From Chlorobiaceae bacterium (GTDB lineage Bacteria > Bacteroidota > Chlorobiia > Chlorobiales > Chlorobiaceae): a DNA stretch of 55,635 nucleotides. Positions within the stretch are counted from its first letter, which is position 1. Each line of letters begins with the position of its first letter. Made by a program: the position numbers and the translations under genes. Under the pieces are notes generated by a model that saw nothing but the letters and a program-made list of their open reading frames with translations, was not told the origin of the DNA and did not search any database. Location of the stretch: the NCBI GenBank assembly GCA_013335405.1, contig JAAXVR010000019.1:1-55635 (forward strand), read 5' to 3'. Of the stretch, positions 21,980 through 33,624 are shown piece by piece.

Positions 21980-22533
21980 AACGAACCTCCGGGGTTATTT
22001 GGGTTGATTGTCAGGCAGCGAAAGATATTTCATAAGGTATCACTGTAAAAAATAAATCCAAAGCGCAGGGGAACACCTGTTCCATCAACCGCAACTTTTT
22101 CTTGCCTGCACCTTGACACTATTGTCGGCAGACTATTCCGTCAGCAATGCCCTCTTCATGGACAATTTGTGAAATAAGATCTGATTGGTCAACTTTTATT
22201 TTTATCTATGATTCAAACAATACCACTCTTCCCGCAGATACTCCCGTTTCTGCCATGATTTCCCTGCAATGCAGCCGTTACCCTATCTTCAGTTCCTCCA
22301 TCAGTCCTGTTTCCATGAACAGGCAGGCCGCTGTTGAAAAATGGTCACTTCCGTCAGCAGAAGGGAGACGATCCCCCTTACTTGCATTTGTCCGGCCGCC
22401 ACCGTTTTTGTTTGATCCGGAAGTGCTTCCAAATTGTGAAAAAACTGTTCAACGTCAACGAACTATGTATGATGCGCATTATTATCACGGGGAACATCAG
22501 TCACCAGTACGAATAATAGAACGGGAGTATGTT
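21980..22533. other. Intergenic region between divergent genes
   Basis: 554 bp containing the promoters of the CsgG-like gene (minus) and mgsA (plus). The mgsA frame stays open into this region back to 22147, but the upstream part has no similarity to methylglyoxal synthase and no ribosome binding site. A TTGACA-like hexamer lies near 22113. No other gene is seen. Confidence 0.4.
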
Positions 22534-23007
22534 ATGCTGCAGAAGAAGATCAATATGGTACCGGACAAGAAAATCGCCCTTGTCGCCCACGACAACAAGA
22601 AGCGCGATCTTCTTGAATGGGCAAAATACAACAGGGACCTGCTTTCACATCACGAAATCTATGCCACAGGCACGACCGGAGAAACACTTGTCCGGGAACT
22701 GGACCTGAAAATCAACAAACTTCAAAGCGGTCCGCTTGGCGGAGACCAGCAGATCGGAGCAAAAATTGTCAGCAACGAAATCGATTTTCTGATCTTTTTC
22801 TGGGATCCCCTGGAGCCTCAGCCTCATGATCCGGATGTCAAAGCGTTGCTGCGCATGGCTGTGGTCTGGAATATCCCGATTGCCTGCAACAGGGCGACGG
22901 CGGATTTCATGATTTCATCGCCATTGATGGACGGTCAATACACGCGTCTGGTGCCTGATTATGAAGAATACCGAACGCGCACTATCGATATGGGTTCAGG
23001 CAGATGA
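22534..23007 (+). CDS. mgsA: Methylglyoxal synthase
   Basis: A 157-residue enzyme, the usual length, started at ATG 22534 with GGGAG upstream. It converts dihydroxyacetone phosphate to methylglyoxal and phosphate, a bypass of lower glycolysis. Conserved parts: [15 protein letters not shown] at the N-terminus, ATGTTGETL (phosphate-binding), [14 protein letters not shown] with the catalytic aspartate, [22 protein letters not shown], and [16 protein letters not shown]. It stands as a single gene; the YjdM gene follows after ~150 bp. Confidence 0.95.
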
Positions 23008-23155
23008 TGGCATCATGAAGCGCCAGAAGCTTCAGGATTTCTTCCCGATTTTCACCGGATCAGCTATCCGGGTTCAGTCCGGGCGAGCTTTTTTTGCCGA
23101 AAATCATTATACTACCGCAAAATTTTTGCAGGAACATCTTGAAAAAGGGAACATC

Positions 23156-23494
23156 ATGAGCGGTCTGCCGAACTGTCCGAAATGCAATTCCGAATACGCC
23201 TATGAGTCCGGTACCCTTCTGGTCTGTCCGGAATGCGCTCACGAATGGAGTGCTGCCGAAGCGGTATCGGCAGGCAAGGCACGAGTCTGGAAGGACGCCA
23301 ACGGCAACCTGCTGCAGGACGGTGATACCGTGACGGTGATCAAGGATCTCAAAGTCAAAGGTTCCTCATCGGTGATCAAGGGCGGCACGAAAGTGAAGCA
23401 TATCCGCCTCGTCGAGGGTGACCACGACATTGACTGCAAGATCGAAGGATTCGGGCCGATGCAGCTGAAGTCGGAATTCGTCAGGAAGGCCTGA
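23156..23494 (+). CDS. YjdM/PhnA family zinc-ribbon protein
   Basis: A 112-residue protein. An N-terminal zinc ribbon has two CxxC pairs (CPKC and CPEC) within [20 protein letters not shown] and CPECAHEWS; a C-terminal PhnA-type beta domain follows with [20 protein letters not shown] and [20 protein letters not shown]. The older name alkylphosphonate utilisation operon protein PhnA is misleading; the real function is not known. The ATG at 23156 is preceded by AAAGGGA, and the frame open further upstream has no similarity. Confidence 0.92.
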
Positions 23495-23661
23495 GCAGAA
23501 CCGGTAATCTCATGCACTTGTTTCCCCTGCTCTACCGGCATGTATTCCTCGAGCACCGGCAGTCAGGTGAAACCATAAGCCGTCAGGCCGTGTTGACATG
23601 AGAGGGGAAACCTTTCCCCGGCAACACGGTCAATGCAAACCACTACAAGAGGAGGCCCCCC

Positions 23662-24117
23662 ATGATCAAGGAAGGAAGCAAAGCTCCGGATTTCACGCTT
23701 CCCGATTCGGAAGGCAGGATGGTTTCGCTTTCGGAGTATGCGGGCAGGCAGGTGCTGCTCGTTTTTTATCCGGGTGATGACACTCCCGTATGCACCACGC
23801 AGTTGTGCAGCTACCGGGACAACTACAGCGAATTCCTGAAAAGAGATATAACCGTTCTCGGCATCAGTGTCGACAGCGAAGATTCGCATAAACGGTTCGG
23901 CGAAAAGAACGAGCTGCCTTTTATCCTGCTCAGCGACAGTGGCAAAACGGTATGCAGGTTGTATGATGCCATCGATTTCCTCGGTATGACGAAACGCGCG
24001 TATGTTTTCATCGACGGGAGCGGGACTGTCCGTCTGGCATTCAACGAACTGCTTCCGGTTTTTTACCAGTCGACACGAGAGCTGCTTGCGAAGATCGATG
24101 CGATGAAGCAGGAGTAG
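23662..24117 (+). CDS. Peroxiredoxin (Bcp/PrxQ type)
   Basis: A 151-residue thioredoxin-fold peroxidase. The peroxidatic cysteine is C44 and the resolving cysteine C49 (TPVCTTQLC), the atypical 2-Cys spacing of Bcp/PrxQ enzymes. Other family marks are GSKAPDFTLPDSEGRMVSLSEY, VLLVFYPGDDTPVC and ITVLGISVDSEDSHKRF. It reduces hydrogen peroxide and alkyl hydroperoxides with electrons from thioredoxin in the cytoplasm, a useful protection for a strict anaerobe. A GGAGG ribosome binding site precedes the ATG. It stands alone. Confidence 0.93.
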   Translation: MIKEGSKAPDFTLPDSEGRMVSLSEYAGRQVLLVFYPGDDTPVCTTQLCSYRDNYSEFLKRDITVLGISVDSEDSHKRFGEKNELPFILLSDSGKTVCRLYDAIDFLGMTKRAYVFIDGSGTVRLAFNELLPVFYQSTRELLAKIDAMKQE

Positions 24118-26193: not shown

Positions 26194-27141
26194 ATGAGGT
26201 CTGCCATACCCGATTACTTTTCCCTCTTCAACTGCATTTCTTCGTCAGTATGTCTGAAAAGGCGCAACACCCTGATTTCAGCCCTTTTTTTTATCTCAAT
26301 GCATCTCCTGTTTGGAGTAAACGATGCTTTTGCTGCTCCACCCGGCCTGCTTGCCCGATATGATGTTGCAGGAAGACCTTCACGAATGCTCACCCTGCCC
26401 TCTTCGCTGCATGAAATATCCGGTATCGCTGTTTCAAGTGACGGAAAGCTGTTCGCGCACGATGATGAAGTTTCCATGGTCTTTCAGCTCGATCCGGCTG
26501 ACGGAAAGGTTGTGAAACGGTTCGATGTGGTAACAAACCAATGGTTCGGGAAAGGGAGGATAGAGGACGATTTCGAGGATATCGCCATTGCAGGCAGTCG
26601 TTTTTTCCTGGTAACCAGCAAAGGAACGATCTATGAGTTCAGGGAGGGGAAAAACGGGGAAAAAGTACAGGCGGCCACCTACAGGACCGGACTCGGCAAA
26701 CACCATGAAGTTGAAGGGTTGTGCTATGATCCTCCGAGCAGATCACTGCTTCTTACCTGTAAAAGCATAGCTCCGAAAGCGGGGAGAAGAAAAGGAAGCC
26801 GACCGGTTTATTCTTTTTCCATTGCATCCTCGTCGTTACTTGAAAAACCGCGTTTCGTGATCGATGCAGTGCATGTGGCCGGTCAGGCCGACATGAAGGA
26901 TTTCCAGCCATCAGCCATTACCAGGAATCCTCATTCCGGATCGTTTTTCGTGCTCTCGTCAAAATCAAGGCTGATTGCGGAAATCGAACCACACGGAGGG
27001 GCCCTTCTTGGTGTCAGGAAACTTTCTCCGGCATATCATCCCCAACCTGAAGGAATAGCGTTTCTCGGAGGTGATTCGCTGCTCATCGGCAATGAAGGTC
27101 TGCTCCATGGAACGATTTCCGTATACGGGATGCGGCAGTGA
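26194..27141 (+). CDS. SdiA-regulated-type beta-propeller protein
   Basis: A 315-residue exported protein. The hydrophobic stretch LISALFFISMHLLFGVNDAFA ends near residue 48 and is probably a signal peptide; the ATG at 26194 would give a long basic n-region, so the true start may be a little later. The mature part shows the propeller repeats LHEISGIAVSSDGKLFAHDD, RIEDDFEDIAIAGSRFFLVTS, HEVEGLCYDPPSRSLLLTCK, and PEGIAFLGGDSLLIGNEG, with the conserved acidic EDFEDIA and HEVEG residues of this family (also near phytase-like and esterase-like propellers). Enzymatic role unknown; calcium-dependent phosphoesterase activity is conceivable. It lies 227 bp before the outer-membrane kinase-like gene. 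Confidence 0.75.
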   Translation: MRSAIPDYFSLFNCISSSVCLKRRNTLISALFFISMHLLFGVNDAFAAPPGLLARYDVAGRPSRMLTLPSSLHEISGIAVSSDGKLFAHDDEVSMVFQLDPADGKVVKRFDVVTNQWFGKGRIEDDFEDIAIAGSRFFLVTSKGTIYEFREGKNGEKVQAATYRTGLGKHHEVEGLCYDPPSRSLLLTCKSIAPKAGRRKGSRPVYSFSIASSSLLEKPRFVIDAVHVAGQADMKDFQPSAITRNPHSGSFFVLSSKSRLIAEIEPHGGALLGVRKLSPAYHPQPEGIAFLGGDSLLIGNEGLLHGTISVYGMRQ

Positions 27142-27368: not shown

Positions 27369-30119
27369 ATGAAATCATTTATCAAAAGTGTTTCATGTGC
27401 GCTCGCGGTATCGTGCACATCCGTGGTGTTCCCGGTCTTGGGCAAGGCCCAGCCGGTCAAGCTTCCCTTCGATACGGTCACCGGAAAATCGATGGTCACC
27501 GTGGTCCCCGGTTCAGAATACAGGGCCAGTGCCCTGCATACCCTTATATTCGGAACTCACTGGCGCTCTTTGTGGACAACGCCCATCGAAATCCCGGTCC
27601 TCGATCTCGGCTCATTTGCCGGCGGCCTGAAACCGATCGAAAAAGGGGGCGGCTTTCAGACGATACGCCTGAGCTTCAGGGGTGCTGACGGAAAGCAGTA
27701 CAGGTTCAGGACCCTTGACAAGGATCCTGCGAGGGGGATGCCGCCAAAATTGCGCAATACGGTTGTTTCCGATGTGGTCCAGGACCAGGTGAGTACATCG
27801 AATCCTGTTTCGGGTCTCGTCATTCCTCCTCTTCTCGATGCCGCAGACGTTTATCATGTCATTCCGAAAATATTCGTCATGCCTTACGATCAGCGGCTTC
27901 TGGGCGAATACTACAATGAATTCGCCGGTCTGGTGGGTACCCTGGAAGAATACCCGGAAGCTGGCGATGCGGCTGGTCACGGTTTTATGGACGCCGATGT
28001 CATTTCCGGAACGAATAAAATGTTCAACAGCCTCGAAGAGGACAGTGCCAACAAGGTCGATGCAAGGGCTTATCTGCGTGCAAGGCTTATCGATCTGTTC
28101 ATAGGCGACTGGGACCGCCATTCCGAACAGTGGCGCTGGGCAGGTTATCGCAGGGACGGACTCACTACATGGATACCTATTCCACGGGACAGGGACAATG
28201 CCTTTTCACGGCAGGACGGCATTTTTTCATGGATTATAAAACAGGTTATCCCTCAGGTCGAGGGTTTTGGTCCGGCTTTTCCTGACATAAAATACCTCAG
28301 CTGGTCCGGGAGGCCTCTTGATCGCCGTCTTTTTTCAGGAATAGGCCGCACCGAGTGGGATGATGTCACCAGGGAACTCAAGGCGAAACTGACCGACGAA
28401 GTCATCCACAATGCAGTATCGAGGATGCCCCGAGCCATGTATGAAATAGAAGGCAAAAAGCTTGAAAGCGACCTTCGTTCGAGGAGGGACCTTCTCGGAG
28501 ACGCTTCGCACGAGCTCTATACGCTCTATGCCGAAGATGTCGATATTTTTGCCAGCGACAAGGCGGAGATTGCTGAAGTGCACCGTCTCGAGAACGGTCA
28601 GGTGGACGTGTCCCTCAGCCGGCAAGACGTTTCCCCCGCTTCCGCTCAGAGGCTGCAGGTATTCCGCCGTGTTTTCAGTCCGCAGGAGACCAGTGAGGTC
28701 CGACTCTATCTCAGGGGTGGTGACGACAGTGTTACCGTAGATGGTCCGGTTTCCGGCAATGGCATAAAAGTCAGGGTTGTCGGTGGAGGAGGGGCGGACC
28801 GTTTCGAAGACCGTTCATCAAAACCGGTCTCCGGGGCAGGCCGGGTCGGCAAGAAGACTTATTTCTATGACAAGGGGGAGCATTCGCAGTTTACCGTAAC
28901 GAAATATACGGTTGTCGACCGCCGCAAGGTCAAGCCGGAGCCGTTGAATGACAGGGAGCGTTATGATTTCAGTCCGCGCGATTCCGGAAAGGAAGTTGTT
29001 GCAAACGTAACAGGTCTCAGACCTGACTACTCGTCCGACTACGGACCCTATCTCGGCTGGGGGGTTACGGTTGAAGACTACGGCTTCCGGGAGGAACCAT
29101 ACCGCTATTCCATGAAGTTCAGCGGGGGTGTGGCTCCATTCACCGATTTCCGCTACCAGATGCAGTTCCGCGGGGATTTCAGGACCCTTGTCAGGAACGC
29201 CAGCCTTCTGATCGAAACCGGTACCTCAGGTATGAACAACATCAATTTCTACGGGCTCGGCAACGAACGCTATTATCGAGGCAGCGGTCTGACGGAAGAA
29301 AATTTCGAGATACCAAACCAGATCACGACGATAAAGGCATCGCTTCGCTATCCGATGGACAGGAACTACCACTGGTCAGCAGGAATCGCGGGGAAATGGG
29401 TTGATCTCCAGATTGAATCCGGCTCTTTCATCGCAAACCATCCCGGTGAAGCACCCGGTATCGATGACGATTTTGCCGGAAGCTTCCATGTCGGATTCCA
29501 TTACGATTCACGGAAAAGTGGCGAGTTTATCGAGCTTTCTCCCCGAAAGCAGCAGGGACGGCTTGTCGGAGGGGAAAGCCGGGGCAATACCGCGGCTCTG
29601 TCCGGTATGCTTGTGGATCTGGAAGTTGCTCACTATCCTGAATTTATTGGCAACGAGAACTCCTTCACCAAGCTTCGCGGGGAGGTGCGCAAATATATTC
29701 CATTCTCTTCCACCGGTTATTCAAGGGTGGTGCTGAGAGCTGGCGGCGAGAAAATCTGGGGTGATTATCCTTTCTGGGAAGCGGCATACCTTGGTGGCTC
29801 CACCTCACTCAGAGGGTACGACCGTGAGCGTTTTGCCGGTGATGCATCGATTTATGCCGGTTCCGAACTCCGTCTCTACGCAGGCAACTTCAAATTTATC
29901 GTGCCGGTTATTTTCGGCCCTGTTGCATTTCTGGAAACCGGAAGGGTCTTTGTCAAGGGCGAGGATTCTTCCGCCTGGCACACCTCTGTCGGTGGCGGGT
30001 TGTGGTTCGGCTTTGTCGAATCCCGTTACAGTGCAAGTATCGTCTACGGTCACGGGTTCGATGATGGCAGGCTCATCGATAGCAGCGGTATCTATGTGAG
30101 AGCCGGCTTCAGTTTCTGA
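27369..30119 (+). CDS. Exported kinase-like domain fused to a BamA/TamA-type outer-membrane barrel
   Basis: A 916-residue protein from ATG 27369; a signal peptide occupies about residues 1-27. The part from ~40 to ~470 carries RLIDLFIGDWDRHSEQWRW (catalytic-loop-like, GDWDRH at 246-251) and IPIPRDRDNAFSR (metal-binding-like aspartates, 272-280). This recalls HipA/Fam20C/PI3K-type kinases (xDRH then D-NG/AF), with GKQYRFRTLDKDP near 108-120 as a possible nucleotide-lysine strand. A beta-rich linker with a VRVVGGGGADRFED pattern follows. The last ~330 residues are a surface-antigen D15/BamA-like barrel with GGSTSLRGYDRERF (RGY-type signature) and a terminal phenylalanine. Related proteins in Bacteroidetes often also have a metallophosphoesterase domain, which is missing here. 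Barrel: confident; kinase: inferred. Confidence 0.78.
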   Translation: MKSFIKSVSCALAVSCTSVVFPVLGKAQPVKLPFDTVTGKSMVTVVPGSEYRASALHTLIFGTHWRSLWTTPIEIPVLDLGSFAGGLKPIEKGGGFQTIRLSFRGADGKQYRFRTLDKDPARGMPPKLRNTVVSDVVQDQVSTSNPVSGLVIPPLLDAADVYHVIPKIFVMPYDQRLLGEYYNEFAGLVGTLEEYPEAGDAAGHGFMDADVISGTNKMFNSLEEDSANKVDARAYLRARLIDLFIGDWDRHSEQWRWAGYRRDGLTTWIPIPRDRDNAFSRQDGIFSWIIKQVIPQVEGFGPAFPDIKYLSWSGRPLDRRLFSGIGRTEWDDVTRELKAKLTDEVIHNAVSRMPRAMYEIEGKKLESDLRSRRDLLGDASHELYTLYAEDVDIFASDKAEIAEVHRLENGQVDVSLSRQDVSPASAQRLQVFRRVFSPQETSEVRLYLRGGDDSVTVDGPVSGNGIKVRVVGGGGADRFEDRSSKPVSGAGRVGKKTYFYDKGEHSQFTVTKYTVVDRRKVKPEPLNDRERYDFSPRDSGKEVVANVTGLRPDYSSDYGPYLGWGVTVEDYGFREEPYRYSMKFSGGVAPFTDFRYQMQFRGDFRTLVRNASLLIETGTSGMNNINFYGLGNERYYRGSGLTEENFEIPNQITTIKASLRYPMDRNYHWSAGIAGKWVDLQIESGSFIANHPGEAPGIDDDFAGSFHVGFHYDSRKSGEFIELSPRKQQGRLVGGESRGNTAALSGMLVDLEVAHYPEFIGNENSFTKLRGEVRKYIPFSSTGYSRVVLRAGGEKIWGDYPFWEAAYLGGSTSLRGYDRERFAGDASIYAGSELRLYAGNFKFIVPVIFGPVAFLETGRVFVKGEDSSAWHTSVGGGLWFGFVESRYSASIVYGHGFDDGRLIDSSGIYVRAGFSF

Positions 30120-30271: not shown

Positions 30272-31387
30272 ATGAAGTTTCAGAAAAGGAGCTCCCGTAA
30301 AATAGCTTCGGTACTGTCGATCACTACCGAGTACCTGATGGCCTTTATGGCCTACTTTCTCCTGATGAAGGTTACCGAAAGCGCCCTGCTCGACGATACC
30401 CCGGCTTTCGACCTGCTTTCGTTCATACGCTTTCTGGCGATTGCGTTTGTTTCTGCTTTAACCGTGGCACTCGTAAACCTTTACGCGGTCATACCGCTGA
30501 CGCAGAAACTGAACTTTTTCCGCTCCATATTTCTGGGGACACTGGTTTATACCATTGCCGCCATGACAGGGATATTTCTTTACGTGTCGATCGAACACCT
30601 CATCCTGCATGCCGGCGGGTTCGGCGGCAGCGATTTCATCGCCGAGACAGGTCTTTATCTGCGGTTCGATTATTTTCCCTTGTTGCTGTTTCTGCTTCTG
30701 GTTTCCTATCCCATCAGAATTCTGCATGTCATTGTGAATCGTATCGGACTGAAAAACATCCTCGATGTGGTGTTCGATCGTTACCGGGTGGCTCATGAAG
30801 AAGAACGGGTTTTCATGTTCATGGACCTTTACGGTTCGACAATAGCTGCCGAAAAGCTCGGCCATGTCCGTTACCATAACCTGCTGGATGAACTGTTCAA
30901 TGATATCTCCGACGTGATCGCCAAGTACTCAGGGGAGATTTACCAGTATGTGGGGGATGCTGTCGTCGTTTCATGGGATATCCGACGCGGAACGGAAAAC
31001 ATGAACTGCGTTCGTTGTTTTTTTGAAATCAAGGCTGTCATGGAAGAACTGGGGGAAAGATACCGCAGTGCTTACCAGTTCGAGCCCCGGTTCAAAGCAG
31101 GTATGCATGCCGGGAAGGTAATCGCCGCCGAGGTTGGAGATTTCAAGAAAGAGGTCGCTTTCCACGGGGATACGGTCAATACTGCCTCGAGGATACAGGC
31201 GGCCTGCCTTGAGTTCAACACCCGTCTGCTTGTTTCGGAAGAGCTCTTCCTTTCATTTCCTGTCGGTTGCCTCAGGAATTACAGTACGGAGTTCATGGGC
31301 TGCATGAAACTCAAGGGGAGACTGAACGATATCTGCCTCTACCGAATAGAGTTCATGAACAGTCCAACCGTCACGGCCATTTTATGA
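30272..31387 (+). CDS. Membrane-bound class III nucleotide cyclase
   Basis: A 371-residue protein. Four membrane helices (about residues 15-33, 50-72, 85-107, 133-155) precede a class III cyclase domain (about 175-365). Metal-binding aspartates are D185 (FMFMDLYGST) and D229 (YQYVGDAVVVSW). The transition-state asparagine and arginine are N303 and R307 in FHGDTVNTASRIQ. The substrate-choosing region KKEVAFHGD keeps lysine and aspartate as in adenylate cyclases, but base choice (ATP, GTP or a pyrimidine) cannot be fixed by eye. Its 3' end overlaps by 17 bp the convergent gene for an HD-PycTM fusion protein, a likely reader or degrader of cyclic nucleotides. Confidence 0.9.
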   Translation: MKFQKRSSRKIASVLSITTEYLMAFMAYFLLMKVTESALLDDTPAFDLLSFIRFLAIAFVSALTVALVNLYAVIPLTQKLNFFRSIFLGTLVYTIAAMTGIFLYVSIEHLILHAGGFGGSDFIAETGLYLRFDYFPLLLFLLLVSYPIRILHVIVNRIGLKNILDVVFDRYRVAHEEERVFMFMDLYGSTIAAEKLGHVRYHNLLDELFNDISDVIAKYSGEIYQYVGDAVVVSWDIRRGTENMNCVRCFFEIKAVMEELGERYRSAYQFEPRFKAGMHAGKVIAAEVGDFKKEVAFHGDTVNTASRIQAACLEFNTRLLVSEELFLSFPVGCLRNYSTEFMGCMKLKGRLNDICLYRIEFMNSPTVTAIL

Positions 31388-32585
31388 AAGCGAAGCTGTA
31401 TAGAAGAATGGACGCCAGGAGGCCCAGCATGAAAATATCGTAGGAAATCCGCAGGAACCTGTATTTGTAATTGAGCACTTTGCCGAGGAAGTAGGTGTCC
31501 CGGATCATGTTGTCGATGTAGTAGTCCTTGTCCTTCAGCATCTCTTTCATGCCCCATTCGAACTCGTCAAGCTTCAGGTTGATGAATGTTCCGAAAAAAA
31601 GCAGGTTGGCTTTGCGCTCCCTGATTGATTCTTTCGTTGTTTTCGTCCTCGTTATTTTGGGTCTTGTTGCCAGTACGGAGGTTATGATCGTTGCAACACA
31701 GCTCAACAGGAGCACGAAGGTGGGGAGCATGAGCTGCGGGAACTCGTCCAGTTTTCTGACAAGAAGCGAAATGATGATGGAAAAAATCAGCGAGTTTGTC
31801 TGGATCATGATGTTGGCCTTGTGGTCCACTATTGCGCTGAAATCGACGTGATTTCTCGATGAGGTGCGGTAATAGACCTCCATGTTCCGCTCAAGACCCC
31901 TTTCCTGAACTGACTTGTCTTTTTTCTGCTTTTTCGGGTTTTCTCCGTGTTCATCCGTTTTTTCCGCACCTTCATCCTTAGCTGTTTTTTTTCTCAGCCG
32001 CTGGTAAAGGTCCACGAGGTTTTTCTGTCGCTCGGCATTGAACGTCAGGTTTGCGTATTTCGTATGGAAAGGGTTGTTCAGGAAAAAGCCGATATTAAGT
32101 TCAATCCATTCGATGTCGGTGAACGTGCGTTTTCCCTGTGTTTCTATTTCAATCCTTATCAGTTCGCTTTTTTCACGATAATCCGGTTTTCCGAGATGCG
32201 AGAGATCAGCGTCGCAAAGGATTTCTTCAAGGAGGCTTTCGGGATGCTGGGGGAGCTTCGTGGCAAAGATGCACCGGCAAACGAGATCGGTGTATTCCCG
32301 GGAGTACCCTTTTTCCATGAGGAACTCTCTTGCAAGTTCGGCACTTTTTTCTTCATGGCCATCAAGTCCGAATGTACAGCCGGTATCGTGAAACCAGGCG
32401 GCAACAAGGAGTACTTCAGTTTCCTTTTCAGATACAGCCATCCCGCAGGCGATTTCCCGGCATGTTTCGACGGTTTCGACGGTATGGGCATAATTGTGAT
32501 AGAGACACCAGTCGATGCCATGTTCCCTGAAAAGCCTGAAAACGTAATCGGCTGTCTGATCCAGAATCGATGCATCATTCCCCAT
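31371..32585 (-). CDS. HD phosphohydrolase fused to Pycsar-type membrane effector (DUF5706/PycTM)
   Basis: A 404-residue two-part protein. Residues 1-195 are an HD domain with H30 and H34 (YHNYAHT), H66-D67 (AAWFHDTG) and D127 (CDADLSH), the metal ligands of small HD hydrolases. A Lys/Glu-rich linker (198-232) leads to a DUF5706 module (about 235-404): RNHVDFSAIVDHKANIMIQT, then membrane helices at about 265-278 and 288-305 and a C-terminal one at 383-400. DUF5706 is the transmembrane effector type of Pycsar anti-phage systems, which is activated by cyclic pyrimidine nucleotides. The convergent neighbour is a class III cyclase. HD could hydrolyse the signal nucleotide; this is inference. ATG 32585 is the first start in the frame. 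Confidence 0.88.
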   Translation of the reverse strand: MGNDASILDQTADYVFRLFREHGIDWCLYHNYAHTVETVETCREIACGMAVSEKETEVLLVAAWFHDTGCTFGLDGHEEKSAELAREFLMEKGYSREYTDLVCRCIFATKLPQHPESLLEEILCDADLSHLGKPDYREKSELIRIEIETQGKRTFTDIEWIELNIGFFLNNPFHTKYANLTFNAERQKNLVDLYQRLRKKTAKDEGAEKTDEHGENPKKQKKDKSVQERGLERNMEVYYRTSSRNHVDFSAIVDHKANIMIQTNSLIFSIIISLLVRKLDEFPQLMLPTFVLLLSCVATIITSVLATRPKITRTKTTKESIRERKANLLFFGTFINLKLDEFEWGMKEMLKDKDYYIDNMIRDTYFLGKVLNYKYRFLRISYDIFMLGLLASILLYSFAFIKWP

Positions 32586-32769: not shown

Positions 32770-33624
32770 ATGCAGCCCAAGTTAAGCGTTCACCGAAAAA
32801 TACCGGTATTTCTCCGTATCGCTTTCACGCTCCCTCTGCTGCTTGCTCTGTTGCTGAACGGTTCGGCGGAAGCCCGGGCCGGACGGGCGGGCGAGCTTAT
32901 TTCGGATGACGCAACAGGTTTTTACGGGGATTTCGGAAAAGTGTTCTCCGCACCTGCGCATTTCGACGGAAATGACTGGCTGACCGTTGCGGCAATTGCC
33001 GGCGCCACCGCTACCTCGGTACTGTTCCTTGATGAACCTGCAAGAGATTTTGCCCGGAACCGTCATACCCCTTTTCTCGATTCGGTCATGCCCGCTGGTG
33101 ATTACTATGGCCGTCTCCGGACGGGTTATGGTATCGGTTCCCTGATCTATCTCGGCGGCATTCTTGCCGGAGCCGACGATGTTCGTCTTACAGGCAGGGC
33201 GGTCATCGAAGCCCATACGTTTGCCCTGATGATTACCGGAGTGCTTAAAGCCACGGCAGGCAGGAGCAGGCCTTTCAGGGATGAAGGAAACATGCGCTTT
33301 TCCATGTTCACTCAGGATAATGCAAGCTGGTCGTTTCCTTCCGGTCATGCAGCTTCGTCTTTCGCGGTTTCTTCGGCGCTTGGCAGCAGGATACGAAGAC
33401 CCTGGGCAAGTGCCGGCCTCTACGCGCTCTCTGCCCTCACCTGCATGCAGCGCATATATGACGACAGACACTGGCTTTCCGACACCATCGTCGGTGCGGC
33501 AATCGGTACGGCAGTAGGTCTTGCTGTGGGTCATATGATCAATGATGAAGAGGAAGGGATGAAGCGCGGGAGCCTGGTGTCGCAAGAACCTGTACCGCTT
33601 ATCGGGGTGACCTTTTCGTTCTGA
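32770..33624 (+). CDS. PAP2-family phosphatase
   Basis: A 284-residue protein with an N-terminal signal peptide or anchor (about 14-37). The three phosphatase motifs are KATAGRSRPF (KxxxxxxRP), SFPSGHAAS (PSGH) and RIYDDRHWLSD (the R-x5-H-x3-D motif), the vanadium-haloperoxidase/PAP2 active site facing the periplasm. Hydrophobic segments around 74-92, 125-140, 150-166, 200-216 and 250-268 provide the membrane core. Substrates in the family are lipid phosphates such as phosphatidic acid, phosphatidylglycerol phosphate or undecaprenyl diphosphate. It starts 184 bp from the divergent HD-PycTM gene. Confidence 0.9.
   Translation: MQPKLSVHRKIPVFLRIAFTLPLLLALLLNGSAEARAGRAGELISDDATGFYGDFGKVFSAPAHFDGNDWLTVAAIAGATATSVLFLDEPARDFARNRHTPFLDSVMPAGDYYGRLRTGYGIGSLIYLGGILAGADDVRLTGRAVIEAHTFALMITGVLKATAGRSRPFRDEGNMRFSMFTQDNASWSFPSGHAASSFAVSSALGSRIRRPWASAGLYALSALTCMQRIYDDRHWLSDTIVGAAIGTAVGLAVGHMINDEEEGMKRGSLVSQEPVPLIGVTFSF

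Follow-up and report, generated by a model that had tools for sequence, protein, structure and literature searches.

A gene for an exported outer-membrane barrel protein with a predicted kinase-like domain is tightly linked, across the sampled genomes of its phylum, to a gene for an inner-membrane HD-PycTM protein, and often also to genes for a β-propeller, a Pycsar-like cyclase, PAP2, PPK1 and SixA. This linkage is the new observation, and the conserved neighbourhood is more informative than the fold and motifs of the protein. The gene lies in the window, the whole 55,635-nucleotide stretch of Chlorobiaceae DNA that was analysed. It is proposed, with a probability of roughly 0.6, that its product is an exported, barrel-anchored kinase-fold enzyme, a periplasm-facing phosphotransferase that acts as the partner of a membrane signalling module. 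Fold, barrel, motif conservation and linkage rest on prediction or statistics, whereas catalytic activity, location in the periplasm, the identity of donor and substrate and which way the coupling to HD-PycTM runs are inferences.

Predicted architecture of the protein and its family

The open reading frame (27369–30119, forward strand) begins with an ATG at 27369, has a stop codon that ends at 30119 and encodes 916 residues (Table 1). Pfam recognises only Omp85 in the product (residues 746–876, E 1.2e-8), and for residues 1–540 neither Pfam, NCBIfam nor PDB sequences gave a credible match. A PDB sequence search with the 916-residue protein gave 0 matches, and a search with homologue alignment A1 gave only cytokinin dehydrogenase (E ~3), leaving no sequence relative with a structure. 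The closest orthologue is 80% identical; dN of ~0.10 against dS of ~1.0 in the kinase-like N-lobe therefore indicates strong purifying selection on this region.

Table 1. Features of the kinase-like barrel gene and of its neighbours in the window.
Feature	Residues	Coordinates	Strand	Basis
Exported YjiK/SdiA-regulated-type β-propeller		26194..27141	+	PF06977 E 5e-4 (just under cut-off)
Sec-type signal peptide	1–27	27369..27449	+	Lys-containing start, hydrophobic core, GKA before QP (read from sequence, without a predictor)
Kinase-like (PKL-fold) domain	41–388	27489..28532	+	AlphaFold2 model; Foldseek and VIA-align matches
Gly-rich GGGFQT, candidate nucleotide/phosphate loop (role inferred)	93–98	27645..27662	+	Alignment A2
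Lys118, candidate nucleotide-phosphate-binding lysine	118	27720..27722	+	Invariant in alignment A2
GDWDRH, candidate catalytic loop (D249)	246–251	28104..28121	+	Aligns with CotH GNWD (marginal profile comparison)
PRDRDNAF, candidate metal-binding DxD (D274, D276)	272–279	28182..28205	+	Aligns with CotH IPYDYDNT (marginal profile comparison)
β-rich linker domain	~390–517	28536..28919	+	Secondary structure of full-length model
16-stranded Omp85-type barrel	~543–916	28995..30116	+	Model strands; TamA/BamA match; Pfam Omp85
Membrane class III nucleotide cyclase, Pycsar-cyclase-like		30272..31387	+	PF00211 E 2.9e-12; PADLOC PycC E 8e-12
HD phosphohydrolase with PycTM membrane domain		31371..32585	-	PF18967 E 8e-31; PF01966 E 2e-7; PADLOC PycTM/2TM
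PAP2 phosphatase		32770..33624	+	PF01569 E 1e-22

An AlphaFold2 model of residues 41–530, built from an alignment of 82 homologues (A2), reached a mean pLDDT of 92.6 and a pTM of 0.92. Its top Foldseek matches in the PDB were Helicobacter pylori CtkA, Bacillus cereus CotH and human PI4KII-alpha, each with E ~1e-5, while DrFam20C matched with E 1.1e-3 (TM 0.30/0.37). VIA-align returned PI4KII-beta with Z 15.2 (249 residues aligned, 4.2 Å), CotH with Z 14.6 (251 residues, 4.0 Å), CtkA with Z 13.6 and HipA with Z ~11; a Z of 7–8 is reported as the typical best for models without a clear match. These matches span residues ~74–388, and those shown are kinase-fold proteins. On the predicted model, the PKL superfamily criterion of a two-lobed kinase-like fold is fulfilled (Z 13–15 to PI4KII, CotH and CtkA), and there is very little doubt that residues ~74–388 are modelled with an atypical-kinase fold. 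The first-pass annotation had noted from the letters alone motifs resembling those of HipA/Fam20C/PI3K-type kinases in a secreted protein that ends as a BamA/TamA-type barrel, and the structural comparisons support a kinase-like fold and such a barrel. Neither of the two outcomes that it had named as fatal, an unrelated predicted fold or unconserved aspartates, was observed.

The full-length model (residues 28–916; pLDDT 87.2, pTM 0.86) contains 16 long strands between residues ~543 and ~912. The barrel aligned with TamA at Z 26.9 (314 residues, 3.2 Å) and with BamA at Z ~25, which, together with the Pfam match, makes a TamA/BamA-like Omp85 barrel virtually certain as a model-based assignment. 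No POTRA-like pattern was seen in the all-β linker, although this applies to the full-length model only and the linker was not folded or searched separately. The arrangement of an N-terminal enzyme domain before a 16-stranded Omp85 barrel is shared with PlpD-type patatin–Omp85 proteins, which differ in their enzyme fold and in having a POTRA domain.

The CotH, type II PI 4-kinase and CtkA/HipA relatives of the kinase-like domain carry no such barrel. Type II PI 4-kinases (4wtv, 9hhm) give the best structural match by Z, tied with CotH, but are eukaryotic lipid kinases with 10% identity. CtkA and HipA (3akk, 4pu5; PF07804) share the kinase-like fold at Z 11–13.6, without a HipA Pfam match to the 916-residue protein. 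CotH spore-coat kinases (PF08757; 5jd9, 5jda) come close in fold and have an aspartate pair of similar spacing, with GxWD and IPxDxD motifs that align in a marginal profile comparison. Yet there is no Pfam-level match, neither to the 916-residue protein nor among its relatives (best E 0.02, 3 of 36 members), and the kinase-like family has DRH...Q where Bacteroidota CotH proteins have DN...N.

Homologues with the kinase-like domain and barrel measure ~850–950 residues, and those lacking the barrel ~420–590 residues, with stand-alone forms of 520–560 residues being common. Larger relatives with an added metallophosphoesterase, which had also been anticipated from the sequence, are absent from the window but do exist elsewhere: these proteins of ~1190–1320 residues have both PF00149 and PF01103 detected (PF00149 E 2.3e-7 in locus L083, weaker in L104 and L123). 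The same pairing occurs unfused in five loci, where the phosphoesterase is encoded by its own gene next to the kinase-like one; only that of L063 is Pfam-confirmed, and those of L043, L044, L065 and L066 were assigned by similarity or reading. Tandem stand-alone kinase-like genes (~530–560 residues, no barrel) in Pontibacter (L102, L106, L135) adjoin short-chain dehydrogenase and UbiE-like genes. Barrel-only homologues of ~430–440 residues (L013, L016, L017, L018) occur in Chlorobium species without the kinase-like domain, and in L016–L018 a short stretch upstream of the barrel resembles the start of the mature protein. The family is also found in Gemmatimonadota, Calditrichota, Acidobacteriota and one deltaproteobacterial MAG. 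No description of the kinase-like–Omp85 family or of phosphoesterase–Omp85 fusions was found in the open-access literature, which is weak evidence of absence.

Conservation of the candidate active site

Within the Gly-rich loop, Gly93–95, Gln97 and Thr98 are invariant or nearly so in the 82 homologues of alignment A2. K118, D249 and D276 are all present in 119 of 135 homologous domains. This set was obtained without the motif: 296 genomes from the phylum were searched with the plain protein sequence, and the aligned residues were then extracted. Loci L061–L140 were left out of the D249 count because they had been found with a pattern containing the D249 motif. Judged by sequence, the conservation of the motifs is far beyond chance, and the second PKL criterion, a conserved lysine with two aspartates, is fulfilled at this level, without superposition on solved active sites. 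The two aspartate motifs named by the first-pass annotation, and Lys118, were located in the translation at the positions it had given, and its expectation that they would be conserved in homologues held in this unbiased set.

Sixteen domains fail the K118/D249/D276 criterion. One of them (G119, L053) is merely an alignment gap, and the failing domains in G124 and G203 are additional paralogues next to intact copies. In four loci of sister genus g25 (L040, L047, L049, L057), the DRD of the metal site is replaced by RHY or RQY and the histidine of DRH is gone, with K118 and D249 kept. None of the genomes concerned has a strong PycTM (E < 1e-20, a threshold chosen by the analyst).

Profile–profile comparison, which had been suggested as a check on the kinase assignment, gave a divided result. 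Comparison with a CotH alignment (A3) was marginal (probability 2%, P 0.021), and this single alignment placed GDWD on GNWD and PIPRDRDNAF on VIPYDYDNTL. With the HipA_C profile (hhalign), the aligned region lies outside the motifs (P 0.063). The spacing of D249 and D276 is similar to that of CotH D228 and D251, and the CotH mutants D228Q and D251A are inactive (PMC7821199). As the motifs align with CotH, whose aspartate mutants are inactive, and no such match exists to HipA_C, the domain looks, from its sequence, as if it resembled CotH in its workings; membership of the CotH family is not shown. Catalytic activity is considered probable, but is inferred without activity data.

Gene neighbourhood and linkage to HD-PycTM

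The window presents, in order, the propeller gene, the kinase-like barrel gene, the cyclase gene, the HD-PycTM gene on the opposite strand and the PAP2 gene. The propeller profile matches Escherichia coli YjiK (3qqz) with E 1.7e-8. The cyclase and HD-PycTM genes (30272–32585) are arranged tail to tail and overlap slightly, and both match Pycsar models in PADLOC with modest scores. In contrast with Pycsar, the PycTM domain of the window is fused to HD and has as its linked partner a kinase-fold protein of the outer membrane, joined in many relatives by PPK1. Further upstream (22147–24117), reading of the sequence without models suggested methylglyoxal-synthase-like, PhnA-like and peroxiredoxin-like genes, and bchI, bchD and bchH are located downstream. 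These bch genes are in keeping with an origin in the Chlorobiaceae, and the nearest named loci belong to Chlorobiaceae MAGs.

Genes lying within at most 6 kb to either side of the kinase-like gene were clustered for 80 loci. The recurrent partners were HD-PycTM (33 loci), the propeller (31), PPK1 (21), a SixA-like phosphatase (17), the membrane class III cyclase (13) and PAP2 (10). A locus of Ignavibacteriaceae (L065:1301-12603) contains, in a row, two kinase-like barrel genes, a propeller, a separate phosphoesterase, PPK1, a SixA-like gene and HD-PycTM. The synteny of the cyclase/HD-PycTM cluster recurs across distant lineages, unlike that of a typical defence island, although mobile-element signatures were not part of the comparison. 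In another Chlorobium group (L061, L062, L205–L208), an intact kinase-like gene stands between ClpB-like and gatB/obgE-like genes, without HD-PycTM.

The kinase-like domain occurs in 110 of the 296 genomes and a strong PycTM in 98; 92 genomes carry both, and in 75 of these the two genes are <10 kb apart. Of the 40 genomes with a strong propeller match, 37 also carry the kinase-like gene. The Fisher P values, which are not corrected for shared ancestry, are 5e-50 for PycTM and 5e-15 for the propeller. Co-occurrence with PPK1 was rejected as evidence: PPK1 is nearly universal (273/296 genomes), and therefore only its proximity is informative. A functional link between the kinase-like gene and HD-PycTM is considered likely, with good confidence.

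The state of the active site was also compared with the presence of PycTM. Every one of the 92 genomes with a kinase-like domain and a strong PycTM has an intact active site in one copy or more, and none of 11 genomes with only degenerate domains (ten from the unbiased set, plus G220) has a strong PycTM; in two of these 11, G072 and G168, the adjacent HD-PycTM homologue keeps the HD half alone. An intact site without a strong PycTM is found in seven genomes (five Chlorobium species and two others). A tree of 109 domains gives roughly five changes in the intact state, with 4–5 independent losses. Four independent pairs are supported; PycTM changes in the same direction in a mean of 3.5 of them (range two to four) and in the opposite direction in none. 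Significance is out of reach with four pairs only (sign test, p 0.125–0.5), and the comparison is post hoc because it was chosen after the neighbourhood had been seen. That loss of the active site tracks loss of PycTM is thus suggestive.

A putative envelope phosphotransferase and its alternatives

In the proposed mechanism, a CotH/PI4K-II/HipA-like domain would hang from the periplasmic side of the 16-stranded Omp85 barrel and most likely move a phosphoryl (or nucleotidyl) group onto an envelope substrate. K118 and the Gly-rich loop would bind the donor, and D249 and D276 would serve catalysis and metal binding. A fused or adjacent metallophosphoesterase may act as an eraser, removing what the kinase-like domain adds. 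The exported YjiK-like propeller and the inner-membrane pair of nucleotide cyclase and HD-PycTM, frequently beside PPK1 and SixA, would complete a phosphate-related module.

The periplasm is not expected to contain free ATP, and this counts against the proposed phosphotransferase. PPK1, for its part, is cytoplasmic. Polyphosphate was considered as a donor because PPK1 and SixA are nearby and because CotH-like genes adjoin polyphosphate polymerase in streptococcal and clostridial loci (PMC7112168), but this remains improbable speculation. Among nine flanking proteins of Bacteroidota CotH genes, no polyphosphate polymerase was seen. In Pycsar, PycTM proteins have been described to form membrane pores (PMC11224242). 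Whether HD-PycTM passes the donor, senses the product or is itself the substrate is undecidable from sequence.

The expected lack of ATP in the periplasm would suit a dead or non-transferase kinase fold, which would bind a ligand (nucleotide, polyphosphate or sugar-phosphate) or serve as a scaffold on the barrel. About 15 of the 135 homologues lack catalytic residues and are retained all the same, including the four of the sister genus. The retention of K118, D249 and D276 in the other 119, the presence of at least one intact copy in every genome with both genes and the lack of a strong PycTM in degenerate-only genomes leave this a minority possibility. Nor is the kinase-like domain likely to be a docking platform that replaces POTRA domains in a factor that assembles outer-membrane proteins or lipids. 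The resemblance of the barrel to TamA and BamA, the absence of a POTRA pattern from the model and the barrel-only homologues of some Chlorobium fit such a factor, but barrel-less homologues of 520–560 residues are common and the family conserves its catalytic residues, so that this reading appears improbable.

The side of the membrane is a separate question. PlpD, an enzyme–Omp85 fusion once deemed surface-exposed, has been shown to have a periplasmic enzyme domain (PMC11116518). Because of this analogy, and because the strongest genetic partner is an inner-membrane protein, a periplasmic location is inferred to be likely. An N-terminal enzyme with an Omp85 barrel is also the layout proposed for type Vd autotransporters, and a surface-exposed enzyme exported via its own barrel, with extracellular substrates or nutrients, could use extracellular phosphate compounds in a way that would suit the YjiK-like propeller and the phosphoesterase partners. 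This remains rather unlikely: PlpD, the type Vd prototype, turned out to be periplasmic (PMC11116518), and genomic linkage to an inner-membrane protein is easier to explain across the periplasm. Least favoured is an anti-phage module made up of a Pycsar system (the cyclase and PycTM) with the barrel protein as its sensor or envelope accessory. PADLOC PycC and PycTM models do match both neighbours, but the 916-residue protein and the propeller fit no PADLOC model, mostly one copy occurs per genome, PycTM is fused to HD and the synteny beside PPK1/SixA recurs across distant lineages.

A broader reading of the periplasmic phosphotransferase is that it belongs to a widespread form of envelope signalling, in which a periplasmic kinase-fold enzyme anchored in the outer membrane is fed by a donor that is not free cytosolic ATP (either polyphosphate or a nucleotide that HD-PycTM transfers across the inner membrane) and works with a cyclic-nucleotide module and PPK1, and PycTM has a housekeeping rather than an anti-phage role; this is doubtful at present. 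The linkage also suggests that PycTM domains have roles beyond phage defence. Secreted kinase-fold enzymes pose the question of which phosphate donor is used outside the cytoplasm. The linkage to HD-PycTM, often with PPK1 and SixA nearby, offers a testable proposal: that phosphate transfer at the outer membrane is tied to an inner-membrane cyclic-nucleotide module. More than one third of the genomes sampled from the phylum contain the unnamed family involved, which has a conserved candidate active site and conserved partners.
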